Source: Deltaproteobacteria bacterium
GTDB lineage: Bacteria > Desulfobacterota > Desulfobulbia > Desulfobulbales > Desulfurivibrionaceae
Direction of reading: 5' to 3'
DNA: 64,000 nt
Assembly: GCA_021802645.1 (NCBI GenBank)
Contig: JAJZRO010000002.1
Span: 184,306-248,305, forward strand
Part shown: one piece after another, positions 12,556 through 19,058 of the stretch
Position numbering within the stretch: position 1 is the first letter of the stretch
How the letters are laid out: each line of letters begins with the position of its first letter
Translations under genes and position numbers: made by a program
The notes under the pieces: model-generated
Seen by the model: the letters and a program-made list of their open reading frames with translations, nothing else
Databases searched by the model: none
Told to the model about the DNA's origin: nothing

Positions 12556-13380
12556 TTATTCCTTGCTGTCGTCTTCCTCACTCTGGAGCCCTTTCACCAC
12601 CAGGGCGCCGGCCAGACCAAGCAGTCCCAGGTTCTTGGCCTGCTGCGTGGTGGACTTGATCGCCTGCGCCATCATGATGCGGCGCAGATTGGCCTGCGGC
12701 ATCGTCTTCGGCGTAGAGGTGGCGTTCAGCAGTTCGAGATCCTTTTTCTTGCCAAAGTAACGGACATTGGGCCCGATCTTCACGGCGGAGGATTCCAGCC
12801 GGATGGCTCCCTTCTTCACATACTTGGCAACCGCCGAATGGGGATCGTTGATATCGCCGAAGATACGGGCATCAGCGATACAGGTCTGCACACAGGCCGG
12901 CTGCAAACCCTGCGCCAATCTCTCGACGCAGAAGGTACACTTGTCCGCCTTGGGTGCCTCGCCCGTTTCATTCACATACCGGGCGCCATAGGGGCAGGCA
13001 TCGGCGCACGCACCGCAACCGAGACAACGCTCCTTATCGATCTGCACCGTCCCGTTGAAGGGGTCTTTCCAGGTGGCGGCCACGGTCATCTTCTTCGTCT
13101 TGCCGGTCTTGGCATCCGTAAAGGTCTTTTCCACCTTGTCAGCCGGGCACACCGCAACGCAGGCGGGCCGGTCACAATGGTTGCACAAACCCGGATAGAA
13201 GGTATAGGAAAGGCCATGACGTGTTTCGGCCGGGCCAAGCCTTTTCACCCAGTTCCGCCGCTGATCCCGTTTAGACGAATCCTGACCGGTAGGGACCTGC
13301 CATTCTGCCCGGCAGGCTATGGCGCAGGCATGACAGCCGACACACCGGTTCAAATCAATCACCATAACATACTGGCTCAT
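12556..13380 (-). CDS. Four-cluster ferredoxin subunit of a Psr/Dms-type molybdoenzyme
   Basis: The 274-residue protein transfers electrons between the molybdopterin subunit and the membrane. It has four Cys groups for [4Fe-4S] clusters: CVGCHACAIAC, CNHCDRPACVAVCPADK, CLGCGACADACPYGARY and the closing set CTFC with PACVQTC. It lacks a signal peptide, as is normal for partners carried out by the TAT route with the catalytic subunit. Unusually, the C terminus carries a short hydrophobic stretch (NLGLLGLAGALVVKGL) and an acidic tail, and no NrfD/PsrC membrane subunit follows. It lies 12 bp downstream of the catalytic subunit gene. PsrB, PhsB, TtrB and ArrB all look similar, so the substrate cannot be assigned. 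Confidence 0.92.
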   Translation of the reverse strand: MSQYVMVIDLNRCVGCHACAIACRAEWQVPTGQDSSKRDQRRNWVKRLGPAETRHGLSYTFYPGLCNHCDRPACVAVCPADKVEKTFTDAKTGKTKKMTVAATWKDPFNGTVQIDKERCLGCGACADACPYGARYVNETGEAPKADKCTFCVERLAQGLQPACVQTCIADARIFGDINDPHSAVAKYVKKGAIRLESSAVKIGPNVRYFGKKKDLELLNATSTPKTMPQANLRRIMMAQAIKSTTQQAKNLGLLGLAGALVVKGLQSEEDDSKE

Positions 13381-13392
13381 ATCGAATCTCCT

Positions 13393-15681
13393 TTACGCTC
13401 TTTTGATCTCGAAATAGGGAATTTCCTTGGGAACGGGGCGCAGTTCCGGGATGTCTAGCACCTTGTTGTCCTTGATAATCCGGACAAAGTTGGTGCGCTT
13501 GCTGGTGGCGCCAATAAAGGGATCTGCGACGAGGTTGGTCATCATGAACCCGTCGGCTGCACCCTTCTGGTAAGCACGCGAAAGGAGCGGCGACCGGCTG
13601 CCAAAACCATGGGCCATGTACACGGCATCGGGACGTATACCCGGAGTCACCAGAACCTTGATGGGCAGCGAACGCTTGCCGTCCTGATTCTCGAGGACGA
13701 CCGCCTCGCCGTCGGCGATGCCCAGCCGCTTGGCGATCTCGGTGTTGAGCCAGAGGCGATTCTCCGGTTCCTCGTTATGCAGCCAGGCATTGTTCATCGT
13801 CCGGGAGAAGGTGTGGATGGGGGAACGGCCATAGATCAAGCGCGTATAGCCCTTGGGCGGCGCCGGCGTCGGTTCGAACTTGGGCATGGCGTCAAGCTTT
13901 GCGTCGGCGAATTCCTTGATCGACAAATTGACCTTGCCGGAATCCGTCTTGATCTCGAGCTTTTTAGGATCCCGATAGGGGTTGCCGGGATAGGTAACGA
14001 TACCCCCCTTCTCCCGAAGGGTTTCGAGGGTGAGTCCCGCTCCTTTCAACATCTCGTTGATGAAATCCTCCTCCTTCTCGCAGGTATACCCCTTGATGTC
14101 GAGACGCTTGGCCAGGTTTTTGGCGATCCAGTAGGGGGATTTTGCCTCGTACAGCGCCGGAACCACCGGCTGCCGGACCGTGAGATAGGGGGTCAGGCCA
14201 TCGTAGGTGTGGACATCGTCGTAGCGCTCCAGGTAGACGGCGCCAGGGAGAACGATGTCAGACCACACGGCGGTCTCACCCGCCATCATCTCTTCGCAGA
14301 AGATGAAGTCCAGGTTGTTGATGGCCTTCATGGTGTCGTAGGGGTTGGGGATCGTCTGGATAATGTTGACGCCGTTCACCCCCAAGAGTTTCACCGGATA
14401 AGGTTTGCCGGTAATCATTGCCTGGATGACATCGGCGGTAACGGAGCCGAACGGTGACGAAAAGGGGTATTTTCCTTCCTTAAGGGAGGCGGCAGGTGAT
14501 TCGACCTCTGCTGCTTTGGCCTCAGCACATTCTGCCTTGCTGGGTTTGACCGGGGTGGGCAAATAAATACCACCCGGTACCGCCACGGCACCAAAAAGGG
14601 CGGTCAGGATCGCCAGCGACTGATGACGACCGACGTCGCCCTTGCCGTACCAGGTCGAATGGCGGCCAGGATGGATATTGACATGGGGGCTCGCCTTGGC
14701 CAGTACCTCAATCGCGGCCTTCATGTCCCCGACCTTCAGGTCGCAGATCCGCGCCGCCCAGTCCATGGAATAATCCTTGGTCGCCGCCTTGAGCTCATCA
14801 AAGCCCTGGCAATGATTCGCGACGAACTCCTTGTTGTAAAGCTTATGCTGGATCACATAGTTGATCCAGGCAAGCAGGAGTGCGTTGTCGGTGCCCGGAC
14901 GGATGGGCAGATAGATGTCCGCCTTGTTGGCCGGTGCCGAGAAGCGGGGGTCAACAACCACCAGCTTGGCGCCGCTGGACAGGCCCTGGATGTATTCCCG
15001 GACATGGGAGACATGAATATTTTCACCGATATGGGAGCCGACGAGCAACATGGCCTTGGCGTGCCCCATGTCGTTATATTGCCGCGTTCCGGTGGTGATG
15101 TAGCCGACCGTGTTCAGGTAGGCAAGGGCCGCCGGGCCAACGCACTGGAAGAAGGCCGGCTCGCTGGTGTAATTCTCCGTACCCATCGCTTCAAAGATCC
15201 CCCGCATGTTTTCCGCGGAGGCGCCATGATCAAAATAGGCGAGCGCATGGGGACCATATTTCTTCTTGACCGCTTGGATGTTGTGGGCGATCTCGTCCAG
15301 CGCCTCATCCCAGGAAATTTTGGCCCACTTCCCTTCTCCACGGGCGCCCATCCTCTTCATGGGGTACTTCACCCGATCCGGATCATAGACGAGCTGCACA
15401 CCCGAGTTGCCGCGTGCGCAAACCCTTGGGCCGTTGACAGGGCTTTTCGGGTTCCCTTCAATCTTTACGACCTTGCCGTCCTTGACCTTGCCCACGATGG
15501 GGCAACGCCAGAAGCACATCTCACAGACAGAGGTAACCTCTTTCGCCCCGAGGCTGCCGGGGAGATCGGCGGCAATCGCTTTCGACGGGCGCAAAAAATT
15601 GCCCCCCTTCATCTCCAAGGCGGCGAGGGCCGCACACGTGGCCGTGGAGCATTTCAAAAAATCTCTTCTGTTCATACCCAT
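13393..15681 (-). CDS. TAT-exported molybdopterin oxidoreductase catalytic subunit (Psr/Phs/Ttr-like)
   Basis: The 762-residue protein belongs to the DMSO reductase superfamily and should reduce (or oxidise) a sulfur or related oxyanion in the periplasm. It starts with a twin-arginine signal (MNRRDFLKCS), then a [4Fe-4S] site CEMCFWRC with the last Cys in VCARGNSG. Bis-MGD binding regions include LLVGSHIGENIHVSH and LVVVDPRFSAPANKAD. A cysteine in SEPAFFQCVGPAAL stands where a Mo-ligating Cys would lie. The ATG at 15681 follows GGAGGAAGGAG, a very strong site. The TorD-like chaperone is encoded 75 bp upstream and the ferredoxin subunit follows. The FWRC variant and the missing membrane subunit set it apart from textbook PsrA/PhsA; the substrate is unknown. 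Confidence 0.92.
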   Translation of the reverse strand: MGMNRRDFLKCSTATCAALAALEMKGGNFLRPSKAIAADLPGSLGAKEVTSVCEMCFWRCPIVGKVKDGKVVKIEGNPKSPVNGPRVCARGNSGVQLVYDPDRVKYPMKRMGARGEGKWAKISWDEALDEIAHNIQAVKKKYGPHALAYFDHGASAENMRGIFEAMGTENYTSEPAFFQCVGPAALAYLNTVGYITTGTRQYNDMGHAKAMLLVGSHIGENIHVSHVREYIQGLSSGAKLVVVDPRFSAPANKADIYLPIRPGTDNALLLAWINYVIQHKLYNKEFVANHCQGFDELKAATKDYSMDWAARICDLKVGDMKAAIEVLAKASPHVNIHPGRHSTWYGKGDVGRHQSLAILTALFGAVAVPGGIYLPTPVKPSKAECAEAKAAEVESPAASLKEGKYPFSSPFGSVTADVIQAMITGKPYPVKLLGVNGVNIIQTIPNPYDTMKAINNLDFIFCEEMMAGETAVWSDIVLPGAVYLERYDDVHTYDGLTPYLTVRQPVVPALYEAKSPYWIAKNLAKRLDIKGYTCEKEEDFINEMLKGAGLTLETLREKGGIVTYPGNPYRDPKKLEIKTDSGKVNLSIKEFADAKLDAMPKFEPTPAPPKGYTRLIYGRSPIHTFSRTMNNAWLHNEEPENRLWLNTEIAKRLGIADGEAVVLENQDGKRSLPIKVLVTPGIRPDAVYMAHGFGSRSPLLSRAYQKGAADGFMMTNLVADPFIGATSKRTNFVRIIKDNKVLDIPELRPVPKEIPYFEIKRA

Positions 15682-15756
15682 AAAAATCTCCTTCCTCCGA
15701 CAAGTTAGATTAGGATGCACCCAATGCCCCGAATGCACCTGAAAACACGGGCCATG

Positions 15757-16353
15757 TTACGACGTAAAGAAATCGATAAGTCGCACCAAAATCGCATAGT
15801 AAGGCTGCTGGCTCTCCAGGAGAACCCGGTCTCTAAATATCTCAAACCAGGGACGGAAAAGGGCCTCAAGAAACCGCTTTTCCTCCTCAGGCTGATCCCG
15901 ATCCATAAGGGTGGCCAGAAACTCCAGCTCGCATCCCAGGTAATCGGGGATTTCCGTCTCGGAAGCAAGATCAAACCCATGCTCGCGATAAAATGTCAGG
16001 GTTCTTACGGAATTTTGGCCATATACAGTGCCATCGGGGCTCAGATAGACCGAACCATACGGTGGAGCGATCACATGCGGCACCGCATTGATAAAAAGCC
16101 TCGTGTATTCGATCTGGAGGGATGCGAGATGATCCGAGACAGTATCGGGGGATGCCAAGAGCGATGACAAGGTGGATATTTCCTCCTGCCAACCCAGATC
16201 CGTCAGCATGGTGTGGAGGAATGTCCAATAGTCAGGCGTCAACCATGCCGCATCCGGATACTCCATGGATTGGGCAAGAAAACGATAGATATCAGCCATG
16301 CCGGCTGTCAATTTTTCACCGTCGGTCGCTTCCGCCAGATCAGTCGTCATCAT
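15757..16353 (-). CDS. TorD/DmsD-family chaperone for the molybdoenzyme
   Basis: The protein of about 198 residues is all-helical and matches the TorD family, which binds the TAT signal and helps insert molybdopterin before export. Family-like motifs are QIEYTRLFINAVPHVIAPPYGSVYL and the C-terminal RPWFEIFRDRVL. It sits first in the operon, upstream of its presumed client. The start is uncertain. The ATG at 16353 (or 16350) has GAGGG directly beside it. A longer in-frame ATG at 16404 would lie immediately after the T-tract of an attenuator-like hairpin and has no ribosome site, so it was not chosen. Confidence 0.85.
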   Translation of the reverse strand: MMTTDLAEATDGEKLTAGMADIYRFLAQSMEYPDAAWLTPDYWTFLHTMLTDLGWQEEISTLSSLLASPDTVSDHLASLQIEYTRLFINAVPHVIAPPYGSVYLSPDGTVYGQNSVRTLTFYREHGFDLASETEIPDYLGCELEFLATLMDRDQPEEEKRFLEALFRPWFEIFRDRVLLESQQPYYAILVRLIDFFTS

Positions 16354-16404
16354 CCCTCGCTCTTCGGTTCTGGTTTCCGCGTCAAAACGGACCAACCGTT
16401 TCAT

Positions 16405-16650
16405 ACAAAAAAGGCCATGCCGCCAAAAAGAAGTGGTACTTTATTTTGTTTAAAAAGTACCATTCACCGGCGATGGCCCAGCCACTTCGTGGCAGACGTG
16501 TCTACCGTGATGGATGGCATCTGGTTTTCATGGGGAGCCGCCCGCGGAAAACCGCAATCCATCCGGCAGAACGCCGAGGAAGGAAAACACGAGAATTTTC
16601 ATACCACAGTCATCCCATCCTGCAAATGCGGCAAATTGTCGCACTCATTC
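16405..16650 (-). ncRNA. Structured leader element, promoter-distal copy (next to the torD-like gene)
   Basis: This is the copy nearest the operon of a roughly 240-nt element that occurs twice in the same orientation. Reading the minus strand, blocks shared with the other copy include TGCGACAATTTGCC near the start, GTGTTTTCCTTCCTCGGCG, a GGTTTTC...GAAAACC stem enclosing GGGCGGCTCCCC, CGTCTGCCAC-loop-GTGGC, and a closing terminator-like hairpin. Identical loops with changed spacer sequence look like a folded RNA, such as a riboswitch or attenuator. Because the downstream operon encodes a molybdoenzyme, a Mo-cofactor or redox signal is a natural guess, but I could not match it to a known class from memory. 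No protein-coding reading is supported. Confidence 0.55.
16407..16478 (-). terminator. Attenuator-like terminator of the proximal leader copy
   Basis: On the minus strand, GGCCATCGCCG (from 16478) pairs with CGGCATGGCC (to 16413) with one bulged C, and six Ts follow. Inside, TGGTACTTT pairs with AAAGTACCA. An alternative pairing of GAAGTGG, just before the stem, with CCACTTC inside it could act as an antiterminator. The whole sits just ahead of the torD-like reading frame. Confidence 0.6.
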
Positions 16651-16836
16651 ACACAAGACTTGGCCCGTGCGAAGGCACAATCGCACCCCCGAGGCCGAAA
16701 GATCAGGATGACTGGCTGGAGGAGCACAAACATGCCGGGAGGACGGCTATGGCAAGGACTGAAGAGGAGAGCGGGAGGTTGTCTCTTGGGCAAACAGTCC
16801 AGGCGAAGTCGGGGGCATCCGGTGAGGATCCCTTTC

Positions 16837-17075
16837 GCACAAAAAAAAGGCCATGCCGCCAGATGGAAGAAGTGGTACCTTACGTACCATGCAACCACCA
16901 ACGGCGATGGCCCAGCCACTTAGTGGCAGACGCCCACCACAAGGTGTCCGGTTTTCAAGGGGAGCCGCCCTGCGGAAAACCTTCTTCCATCCGGTGGAAC
17001 GCCGAGGAAGGAAAACACAAGAAACTTGTACCACAGAAAATCAGCCCTGCAATGAGGCAAATTGTCGCATTCCCG
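16837..17075 (-). ncRNA. Structured leader element, upstream copy
   Basis: This is the second copy of the element, about 430 bp upstream of the first in the direction of operon transcription. It keeps the same block order: TGCGACAATTTGCC, TTTTCCTTCCTCGGCG, the GGTTTTC/GAAAACC stem around GGGCGGCTCCCC, the GCCAC/GTGGC hairpin, and a terminator with eight Ts. Variable parts differ in both length and sequence, including a CACC-TTGT-GGTG hairpin found only here. The roughly 190 bp between the copies show no gene. The plus-strand histidine kinase begins shortly beyond, so the promoter of the minus-strand leader probably lies in 17076-17127. Confidence 0.55.
16841..16912 (-). terminator. Attenuator-like terminator of the upstream leader copy
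   Basis: On the minus strand, GGCCATCGCCG (from 16912) pairs with CGGCATGGCC (to 16849) with a single bulged C, followed by eight Ts. The inner hairpin is TGGTAC-GTAAG-GTACCA. It spans 72 nt, the same as the terminator of the other copy, although the inner sequences differ. Confidence 0.65.
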
Positions 17076-17127
17076 TGAATAACGTGTCGGCTCACGAAAC
17101 CTCCCCTTGCTTTGCCATCCAAAGATC

Positions 17128-18495
17128 ATGAATAATTCCATTGGGTTCACGCCCACCTCTCCGGGGCCACCGCACATCGCCTTCCGCTGGTTGTTGCGCC
17201 TGCGCTGGGGGGCAGTCTGTTGCCAGCTGCTTTTAATCGGCGTGGTTTCTTTGCTCTTTGCCATTGGCATTCCTCTGCTTATCCTGTCGGCCATCATCGG
17301 CTTTGAGATCATCAGCAATCTCTTCTTTCGCTATCGACTCAATCGCGGGGCCATGGTGGCCGAATACACCTTCACCCTGGTTCTGCTGCTCGACACCATC
17401 CTCCTGACCGCCCTGCTCTATTACACTGGCGGTCCAATGAACCCCTTTACCTTGCTTTATCTCGTGCATATCACCCTGGCCGCCATCCTCATGCGCCCTC
17501 TCTGGTCATGGGCCATTGCCGGACTCACGGTAGTGGCTTACGCTACTCTCTTCTTTCTGCCGCACTATGAGATGCCGGCCCATGACCTCGGCATGCCCAC
17601 CCTGGAGGATCTCTTTGCCCGCTGTCATCTCGTACCGCCGACAAGCGTCGATCTTCTGCGCGATCCCATGGCTATCCACCTGCACGGTATGCTGGTCGCC
17701 TTTGGGGTCAGTGCCTTTTTCATCGTCTTTTTTGTCGGCAGAATTCGGACGGCCTTGGAGGAACAGCAGAAAACACTGACCGATCTCCGCGAACAGAAGC
17801 TTCGTAATGAAAAACTCGCCTCGCTGGCCACCCTCGCCGCCGGAGCGGCCCATGAGTTTTCGACGCCGCTGGCGACCATTGCGGTAGCCGCCGGTGAGAT
17901 GCACCATGCATTGCAAGAACGTGGGGACGACGAAGAGTTGCTGGCGGATGCCACCCTGATTCGCAGCCAGGTTGACCGATGCCGCGAAATTTTGTATCAC
18001 ATGGCGGCCGATGCCGGAGAGCATCTGGGCGAGGCCCTGGAGGAGTTCACGGTCCAGCGATTGGTTGACGAATGCCTGCGTTCTCTACCGGCCAAGGCCA
18101 GGATCCTGATCACCGTGACGAATCAGACCGGCCAGTTGATGATTCGAATGCCATTCCGTACGCTGAGTCGGATCATCCGCGGTCTGTTGAAAAACGGTCT
18201 TGACGCCTCGCCTCCCGATGCACAGGTCGCCCTTGTCTGCCGAATTGAGGGACCACACCTGATATTCGAGGTGAGCGACCATGGCAGCGGCATGGATGCA
18301 GCAACCATGGCCAGGGCGAGCGAGCCTTTCTTCACCACCAAGGAAGCGGGGCGCGGCCTGGGTCTCGGTCTCTACCTGGCAAGATCGGCAGCGGAACGCT
18401 TTGGCGGCGGCTTGGCCATCACTTCTCGGCCGGGGGTTGGCACCACGGTGCGATTGGCCTTTGCCCTGCACCAAATCCAGTCGCCCACGGCGTGA
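17128..18495 (+). CDS. RegB/PrrB-type redox-sensing histidine kinase
   Basis: The 455-residue membrane kinase has six predicted N-terminal membrane helices (residues 25-210) and a cytoplasmic kinase. The loop YYTGGPMNPFTLLYLVHI matches the RegB quinone-sensing GGxxNPF motif. The phosphorylated histidine is in AAGAAHEFSTPLATIAV, close to the RegB H-box. The N box is LLKNGLDASP, and the G boxes are DHGSGM and GRGLGLGLYLA. The ATG at 17128 was preferred over a TTG seven codons upstream; neither has a strong ribosome site. It is followed by its RegA-like partner. RegB proteins sense the quinone pool redox state, which fits the surrounding respiratory genes, including the divergent molybdoenzyme operon. 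Confidence 0.92.
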   Translation: MNNSIGFTPTSPGPPHIAFRWLLRLRWGAVCCQLLLIGVVSLLFAIGIPLLILSAIIGFEIISNLFFRYRLNRGAMVAEYTFTLVLLLDTILLTALLYYTGGPMNPFTLLYLVHITLAAILMRPLWSWAIAGLTVVAYATLFFLPHYEMPAHDLGMPTLEDLFARCHLVPPTSVDLLRDPMAIHLHGMLVAFGVSAFFIVFFVGRIRTALEEQQKTLTDLREQKLRNEKLASLATLAAGAAHEFSTPLATIAVAAGEMHHALQERGDDEELLADATLIRSQVDRCREILYHMAADAGEHLGEALEEFTVQRLVDECLRSLPAKARILITVTNQTGQLMIRMPFRTLSRIIRGLLKNGLDASPPDAQVALVCRIEGPHLIFEVSDHGSGMDAATMARASEPFFTTKEAGRGLGLGLYLARSAAERFGGGLAITSRPGVGTTVRLAFALHQIQSPTA

Positions 18496-18521
18496 ACCGG
18501 CAACGCGTTGGGGAGGTTTTC

Positions 18522-19058
18522 ATGGAACAGACCATCCTCTTAGTCGATGACGAGGATTTTTTTCGCGAACGCCTGGCCAAAGCCTTTACCAAGCGCGGCT
18601 TCACCGTGTTCACTGCCGCGGATTACGAGGAGGGCATAACCGCTATTCGCGAAAAACAGCCGGCCATGGCGGTGGTGGATCTGAAAATGCCTGGGAAATC
18701 GGGACTGGAACTCATTGCCGCCGCCAACGCCGAGTGCCCTTCCATGCGAATCGTGGTGCTCACCGGTTATGGCAGTATTGCCACCGCCGCCGAGGCGGTC
18801 CGGCTCGGGGCGCTGTATTACCTTCCCAAGCCAGCAGATGTGGATGACATTCTCAATGCCTTTGCCCGCGACCAGTCGTTGGGGATGGTGCCCGACGAGG
18901 ATGCCTTCGAGGCCCCCTCTCTGGCACGGGTGGAGTGGGAACACATCAACCGGGTACTTCACGACTGCGGTGGCAACATCTCGGCCGCCGCCCAGAAATT
19001 GGGCATTCACCGGCGGTCTCTTCAGCGTAAACTCCAAAAATATCCACCGGCGAAGTAA
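18522..19058 (+). CDS. RegA/PrrA/ActR-type response regulator
   Basis: The 178-residue regulator has a receiver domain (LLVDDEDFF acidic pocket, phosphorylated Asp in VVDLKMPG, LTGYGSIATA, Lys in LPKPAD) and a C-terminal Fis-type helix-turn-helix (ISAAAQKLGIHRRSLQRKLQKYPPAK). This compact receiver-plus-Fis form without an AAA domain is the RegA/PrrA/ActR arrangement, and the HRRSLQRKL helix is close to the family's. The ATG at 18522 has GGGGAGG nine bases upstream. It follows the kinase by 26 bp. Likely targets nearby are the NosL gene and the molybdoenzyme operon, but no operator was identified. Confidence 0.92.
   Translation: MEQTILLVDDEDFFRERLAKAFTKRGFTVFTAADYEEGITAIREKQPAMAVVDLKMPGKSGLELIAAANAECPSMRIVVLTGYGSIATAAEAVRLGALYYLPKPADVDDILNAFARDQSLGMVPDEDAFEAPSLARVEWEHINRVLHDCGGNISAAAQKLGIHRRSLQRKLQKYPPAK

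Follow-up and report, generated by a model that had tools for sequence, protein, structure and literature searches.

Tandem duplication of small RNA genes is known from PrrF1 and PrrF2, which are under the control of Fur. For the RegB/RegA (PrrB/PrrA, ActS/ActR) redox two-component systems, the sites of PrrA/RegA have been proposed to be degenerate GCG inverted repeats with varying spacer (PMC4263372), and glmY is described as a small RNA gene neighbouring the two-component genes qseEGF, its promoter carrying putative sites for the regulator (PMC8745638). The locus analyzed here, in a window of 64,000 nucleotides (the whole stretch of DNA under study) from a bacterium probably related to the Desulfobulbaceae, resembles RegB/RegA loci in that its histidine kinase and response regulator are best matched by these protein families and that its palindrome is a GCG inverted repeat, which is a loose fit to the sites proposed in PMC4263372. 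However, neither protein reaches its NCBIfam equivalog cut-off, and the site is highly conserved at a fixed promoter spacing, in contrast to the degenerate PrrA sites with their varying spacer. With glmY (PMC8745638), the locus shares a structured RNA beside two-component genes and putative regulator sites at the promoter, whereas the regulator family differs, no sequence relation is claimed, and no Hfq was found in this genome. As with the Moco RNA motif and further riboswitches in molybdoenzyme leaders, a structured element is placed before a molybdoenzyme operon; unlike these, it is without an Rfam match and persists without that operon. The likeness to PrrF1/PrrF2 is one of layout, with a head-to-tail pair of similar promoter-RNA-terminator units, the putative regulator being RegA-like here instead of Fur.

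Between torD (start 16353) and the divergent kinase gene (start 17107), the minus strand carries two copies of one unit, A and B, which lie head to tail with an offset of 426 nt. Each unit consists, in this order, of a 17-nt palindrome, an extended -10-like site, a C/U-rich stretch, a hairpin with a GGCGGCTCCCC apex, a GCCAC/GTGGC hairpin, and an outer stem, GGCCATCGCCG/CGGCATGGCC in both copies, followed by a run of eight (A) or six (B) T. The features of the locus are as follows (R1 denotes the model of the RNA discussed below).

12556 to 13380, minus strand: 4Fe-4S ferredoxin subunit, psrB-like (profile matches)
13393 to 15738, minus strand: psrA/phsA-like molybdopterin oxidoreductase (best NCBIfam family PhsA, below cut-off)
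15757 to 16353, minus strand: torD-like chaperone (Pfam Nitrate_red_del)
16407 to 16412, minus strand: T6 of copy B
16407 to 16591, minus strand: predicted RNA of copy B, also putative torD leader, with the elements of copy A (predicted start; R1 match 16489 to 16596)
16598 to 16606, minus strand: extended -10-like site of copy B, TGGTATGAA, at the fixed spacing of the module
16627 to 16643, minus strand: palindrome of copy B, TGCGACAATTTGCCGCA, putative RegA-type operator and part of the module (0 mismatches to TGCGRCAAWTTGYCGCA)
16841 to 17018, minus strand: predicted RNA of copy A (start placed about 7 nt after the -10-like site; R1 match 16923 to 17024)
Within the RNA of copy A, minus strand: P1 region, GGCGGCTCCCC hairpin, GCCAC/GTGGC hairpin, outer stem (16902 to 16912 with 16849 to 16858), T8 (16841 to 16848)
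17025 to 17033, minus strand: extended -10-like site of copy A, TGGTACAAG, at the fixed spacing, missed by the strict scan
17053 to 17069, minus strand: palindrome of copy A, TGCGACAATTTGCCTCA, putative RegA-type operator and part of the module (1 mismatch to TGCGRCAAWTTGYCGCA)
17107 to 18495, plus strand: RegB/PrrB/ActS-like histidine kinase, divergent (NCBIfam 197.6 bits, cut-off 350)
18492 to 19058, plus strand: RegA/PrrA/ActR-like response regulator with Fis-type HTH (NCBIfam 176.6 bits, cut-off 250)

Thus, for neither the kinase nor the regulator is the RegB or RegA equivalog cut-off reached, though each of these is the best-matching family. The torD start at ATG 16353 was picked for its GCGAGGG, and an in-frame ATG is also present at 16404. 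In the alignment of A and B, mean column identity is 85% and the named blocks keep their order; the preliminary description, which had noticed from the sequence two copies in the same orientation about 430 bp apart, sharing ordered conserved blocks and each ending in a stem with a T-tract of eight or six, was accurate on all these points, the last by inspection. A strict consensus scan of positions 16300 to 17150 reported no sigma70-like and no terminator-like sites, the latter because the stems enclose over-long loops or have tails with too few T for the scan, and the names promoter and terminator therefore rest on conserved spacing and inspection. Since a separate palindrome and -10-like site come with each copy, the two are best read as operator-promoter-RNA-terminator units and not, as had been suggested at first, as switches sensing in series. 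Two equal-scoring RNA copies were also seen in G020 (contig C77; L131, 7798 to 7904 and 8025 to 8131; also in L055), which may be a second tandem case or, since the copies score identically and flank an N gap, an assembly error.

The TGCGACAATTTGCC block, initially counted as part of the structured leader, makes up most of the 17-bp palindrome at a fixed distance upstream of the extended -10-like site, and this conserved 14-mer is a DNA element and not RNA. A search with the pattern TGCGACAATTTGCCNCATT-N10-22-TGnTA detected 83 matches of this module in 58 of the 242 genomes of the order and none in the reversed controls; the span was exactly 42 nt in 66 and 41 to 43 nt in 81 of the 83 matches. 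Among 297 genomes drawn over the phylum, the module was absent from all 285 that lie outside the order, the other 12 belonging to the order and including three with a match. BLAST of the region against 97 genomes, its own included, matched 39, mostly by short stretches covering the palindrome, and the longer element was clear only in G001 and G026 (79% identity). A RegB-like kinase (E ≤ 1e-80) is present in 97 of the 242 genomes of the order and in 52 of the 58 module genomes, with six lacking it; the Fisher p of 2.7e-19 for this co-occurrence is descriptive only, the genomes being related. All 24 modules found at most 700 nt upstream of regB, in 23 genomes, are divergent from it. Of the 97 regB genomes, just 23 place the strict module beside regB, and five of eight further regB loci inspected had neither the palindrome nor the RNA. 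A GCG inverted repeat is found at promoter-like sites in genomes with RegB, as proposed for RegA/PrrA-type sites, and because of its co-occurrence with the RegB-like kinase and its position the palindrome is predicted to be the operator for the divergently encoded RegA-like regulator; the two copies would therefore provide two putative operators in this genome. The module thus offers a concrete candidate operator-promoter arrangement and a small, readable candidate regulon for RegA-like regulators in the order.

A third module in the window's genome (G000:C25:77468-77509, L002; 42 nt) lies before a long ORF with a NosL-resembling start. Moreover, at L135, L137, L149, L150, L153, L154, L159, and L160 the module precedes genes for proteins with twin-arginine-like RRxx(L/I/V)IGxGxxA starts, and a gene related to these at L165 belongs to Pfam C_GCAxxG_C_C.

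The predicted folds were compared with 200 dinucleotide shuffles for each copy, which gave a z of -2.39 for copy A (3 of 200 as stable) and of -4.25 for copy B (0 of 200 as stable). Downstream of the module, the RNA has a narrower distribution. Model R1 matched 15 of the 242 genomes of the order at E ≤ 0.01, of which 13 fall within the 27 genomes of the window's family; 11 of these 13 had contributed sequences to the model, the other two being G025 and G026. Outside the family, R1 matched G198 (E 0.0029) and G209 (E 0.002). The G209 match is coding-like by eye and was taken as chance, whereas G198 was accepted as this RNA because of its imperfect palindrome, -10-like site (TGCGATATAG), C/U-rich start, predicted 16-bp P1 stem, and CGGCT apex. 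The search of Rfam that the preliminary description had proposed, the Moco RNA motif included, gave no covariance-model match in the window at gathering scores and, at E ≤ 5, two unrelated matches far below their cut-offs; at 12 related loci, the sole match was a group II intron elsewhere. A group II intron D1D4 match is located downstream of the regulator gene in G001 (L069, 10932 to 11093, minus strand). A Moco or other known riboswitch was rejected, since there is no Rfam match, and the Mo-cofactor-type switch first suspected is also at odds with the RNA and the molybdoenzyme operon being separable in both directions. A leader peptide was likewise discarded: a short frame follows CCCC in copies A and B, and none was seen by eye in G001. 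No description of the element was found among the best-ranking literature matches listed, mostly from open-access journals, PMC4263372 and PMC7561615 included. The RNA is an undescribed family of a known kind, and this family is missing from the Rfam version searched. The case illustrates that, before a structured element preceding an operon is taken for a riboswitch, one should ask whether it persists where that operon is missing.

We propose, giving it roughly an even chance, that each copy is a RegA-controlled small RNA gene, duplicated here, and that the nearer one is also read through into torD-psrA-psrB. The RegA-like regulator encoded next door would bind the palindrome and activate the promoter of each copy, each RNA would mostly stop at its own terminator, and pairing with mRNAs would involve its C/U-rich 5' segment and its C-rich loop, while copy B, nearest to torD, would double as the leader of torD-psrA-psrB, whose expression would come from read-through. 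A small RNA gene under RegA control is the simplest reading of a structured RNA that brings along a promoter-like site and a terminator-like end and outlasts changes of the downstream genes. For the RNA in the window's family, a leader role besides the small RNA role is likely, because the operon sits so close that its expression from this promoter needs read-through. The homologous leaders upstream of torD-type operons that were to be sought exist in 11 of the 13 R1-matching family genomes, where torD is directly downstream of the RNA; in eight g4 genomes the torD match starts 29 to 48 nt past the end of the R1 model, so that the RNA must act as a leader in these genomes unless torD has another promoter.

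The same proximity of torD, along with the T-run that most g4 leaders carry after P1, speaks for a serious rival, which we regard as possible: RegA would start transcription, and the folded RNA, in response to a ligand, a protein or a translation signal, would set termination versus read-through into torD-psrA-psrB, copies without torD being remnants or serving new neighbours. However, the RNA and the molybdoenzyme operon come apart both ways, and at three loci the RNA is independent of the downstream gene. G001, from the window's genus and about 90% complete, has one unit beside regB with no torD behind it; the next same-strand gene encodes an SNF transporter about 1 kb off, with a short opposite-strand ORF between, and a single PsrA-like protein was detected at E ≤ 1e-100, which has 35% identity and is encoded on another contig. 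In G002, which is weak by R1 (E 1.6) and features a palindrome altered at its first base together with a -10-like site, a predicted P1, and T8, the RNA occupies the regB-divergent place with no torD behind, and a MoCF-domain gene comes next in convergent orientation. In G198, the RNA is found near nosL-regB without torD behind, arsR and a permease gene being next. Conversely, the f3 genomes G050, G104, and G121 have a regB-divergent module before torD and psrA-like genes with no R1 match. Furthermore, no conserved antiterminator was seen among the minimum-energy folds inspected, and no Rfam class accounts for a sensing RNA. G016, with a palindrome beside regB and no torD, has a different short hairpin with T8 and was not counted as this RNA.

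Several observations were made in the related loci. Two loci, G026:C68 (L070) and G001:C30 (L069), are nearly identical and belong to genomes from two genera. A second regB is located on C94 of G026, a genome with 7% contamination, so its contig C68 may be foreign. In g4 leaders, e.g., L036, L038, and L043, a recurrent AACGATA was noticed by eye just after the P1 T-run, which could pair with TCGTTGT or TTGTT before P1, giving an outer helix that only read-through transcripts could form.

A further explanation, which we consider improbable, holds that only the operator-promoter matters and that the RNA acts as a stable 5' UTR or as a terminator insulating the divergent genes, with no regulatory role of its own. 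In line with this, the DNA module is present in 58 and the RNA in 15 of the 242 genomes, and three genomes of the family (G004, G009, and G022) retain torD behind a leader that matches poorly, has no T-run after P1, and is not among the R1 matches at E ≤ 0.01 (in a further model search, G022 and G004 scored 27.5 and 18.7 bits). The structure of the RNA argues against it. In 12 family sequences, 90.9% of the P1 cells are paired as compared to 38 to 43% in slid controls, and 5 of 11 pairs are changed on both sides, a count that is supportive and not independent, the P1 structure having been derived from those 12 sequences. Additionally, the CGGCT apex is kept in G000, G001, G006, G020, and G198, and 22 nt of the C/U-rich 5' stretch are identical between copies A and B. 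Covariation, the absence of which had been named beforehand as evidence against a folded RNA, was thus found for P1. Overall, the folded RNA, the terminator-like end, and the operon leader of the preliminary description stand, whereas its views on which block is RNA, on a Moco switch, and on sensing in series do not.

A mobile repeat of MITE or REP type that landed twice by chance would fit two similar copies close together and is extremely improbable, given that a BLAST search of the window's own genome with the entire region found no third long copy at an unrelated locus (only the region itself and one 23-nt match) and that the R1 matches in relatives adjoin regB or torD, with the exception of G209.

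Returning to the proposed small RNA gene, its action in trans is what we infer. C/U-rich starts and C-rich loops resemble the anti-ribosome-site seeds of other small RNAs. A crude target search with the 5' segment in the window's genome gave 12 places at no more than one mismatch, two of which are the RNA's own DNA, leaving 10 non-self places versus 7 in the reversed control and thus no clear excess; two of the 10 overlap start regions by inspection (L190 and L192) and represent a weak lead only. L192 (G000:C26:297-309, minus strand) is perfectly complementary to the 5' segment over 13 nt and lies immediately ahead of an ABC-ATPase-like gene's start. Masking of torD's own ribosome site by the 5' segment was rejected, as the duplex was no better than shuffles at 14 of 14 loci (fraction 0.085 to 0.74). 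Hfq gave no match in the window's genome, in a search whose control was positive in 5 of 14 known genomes. Weighing against the proposed small RNA gene are the empty strict scan, the nearness of torD in the eight g4 genomes, the regB loci with neither palindrome nor RNA, the weak R1 score of G002 and the modest one of G198, the leaders of G004, G009, and G022 with no T-run after P1, the f4/f7 RNAs described below, which have none after their second hairpin, the missing Hfq match, and a target count near that of the control. A broader proposal, which is tentative and which we rather doubt in its entirety, is that an order-wide RegA-driven small RNA family, born at the regB-facing promoter, might extend redox control past transcription without detected Hfq; the molybdoenzyme operon of one family would ride on terminator read-through, its transcript being small RNA and leader at once, and the duplication of the unit here would give two operators. 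The putative link of the RNA family to redox sensing is directly testable, and an unstudied RNA is tied to a well-defined candidate redox operator.

Positional counterparts of the RNA were observed in f4/f7 genomes, for which no homology is claimed. In G032, G042, G044, G051, G072, G078, and G082, and similarly in G053, the regB-divergent module is followed by an RNA of different appearance, with two hairpins and a conserved CCCCG loop; the seven regB-divergent f4/f7 loci are without a match in Rfam. The second hairpin covaries, 7 of 15 predicted pairs being kept with a change on both sides, and is not followed by a T-run. The two-hairpin RNA loci are L162, L163, L164, L165, L167, L169, and L170, all regB-divergent, as well as L166 and L168 with no detected regB. 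The genes behind these RNAs include uvrC (G032) and those for a xylose-isomerase-like barrel (G042), a SRAP protein (G082), and a C_GCAxxG_C_C protein (G044).
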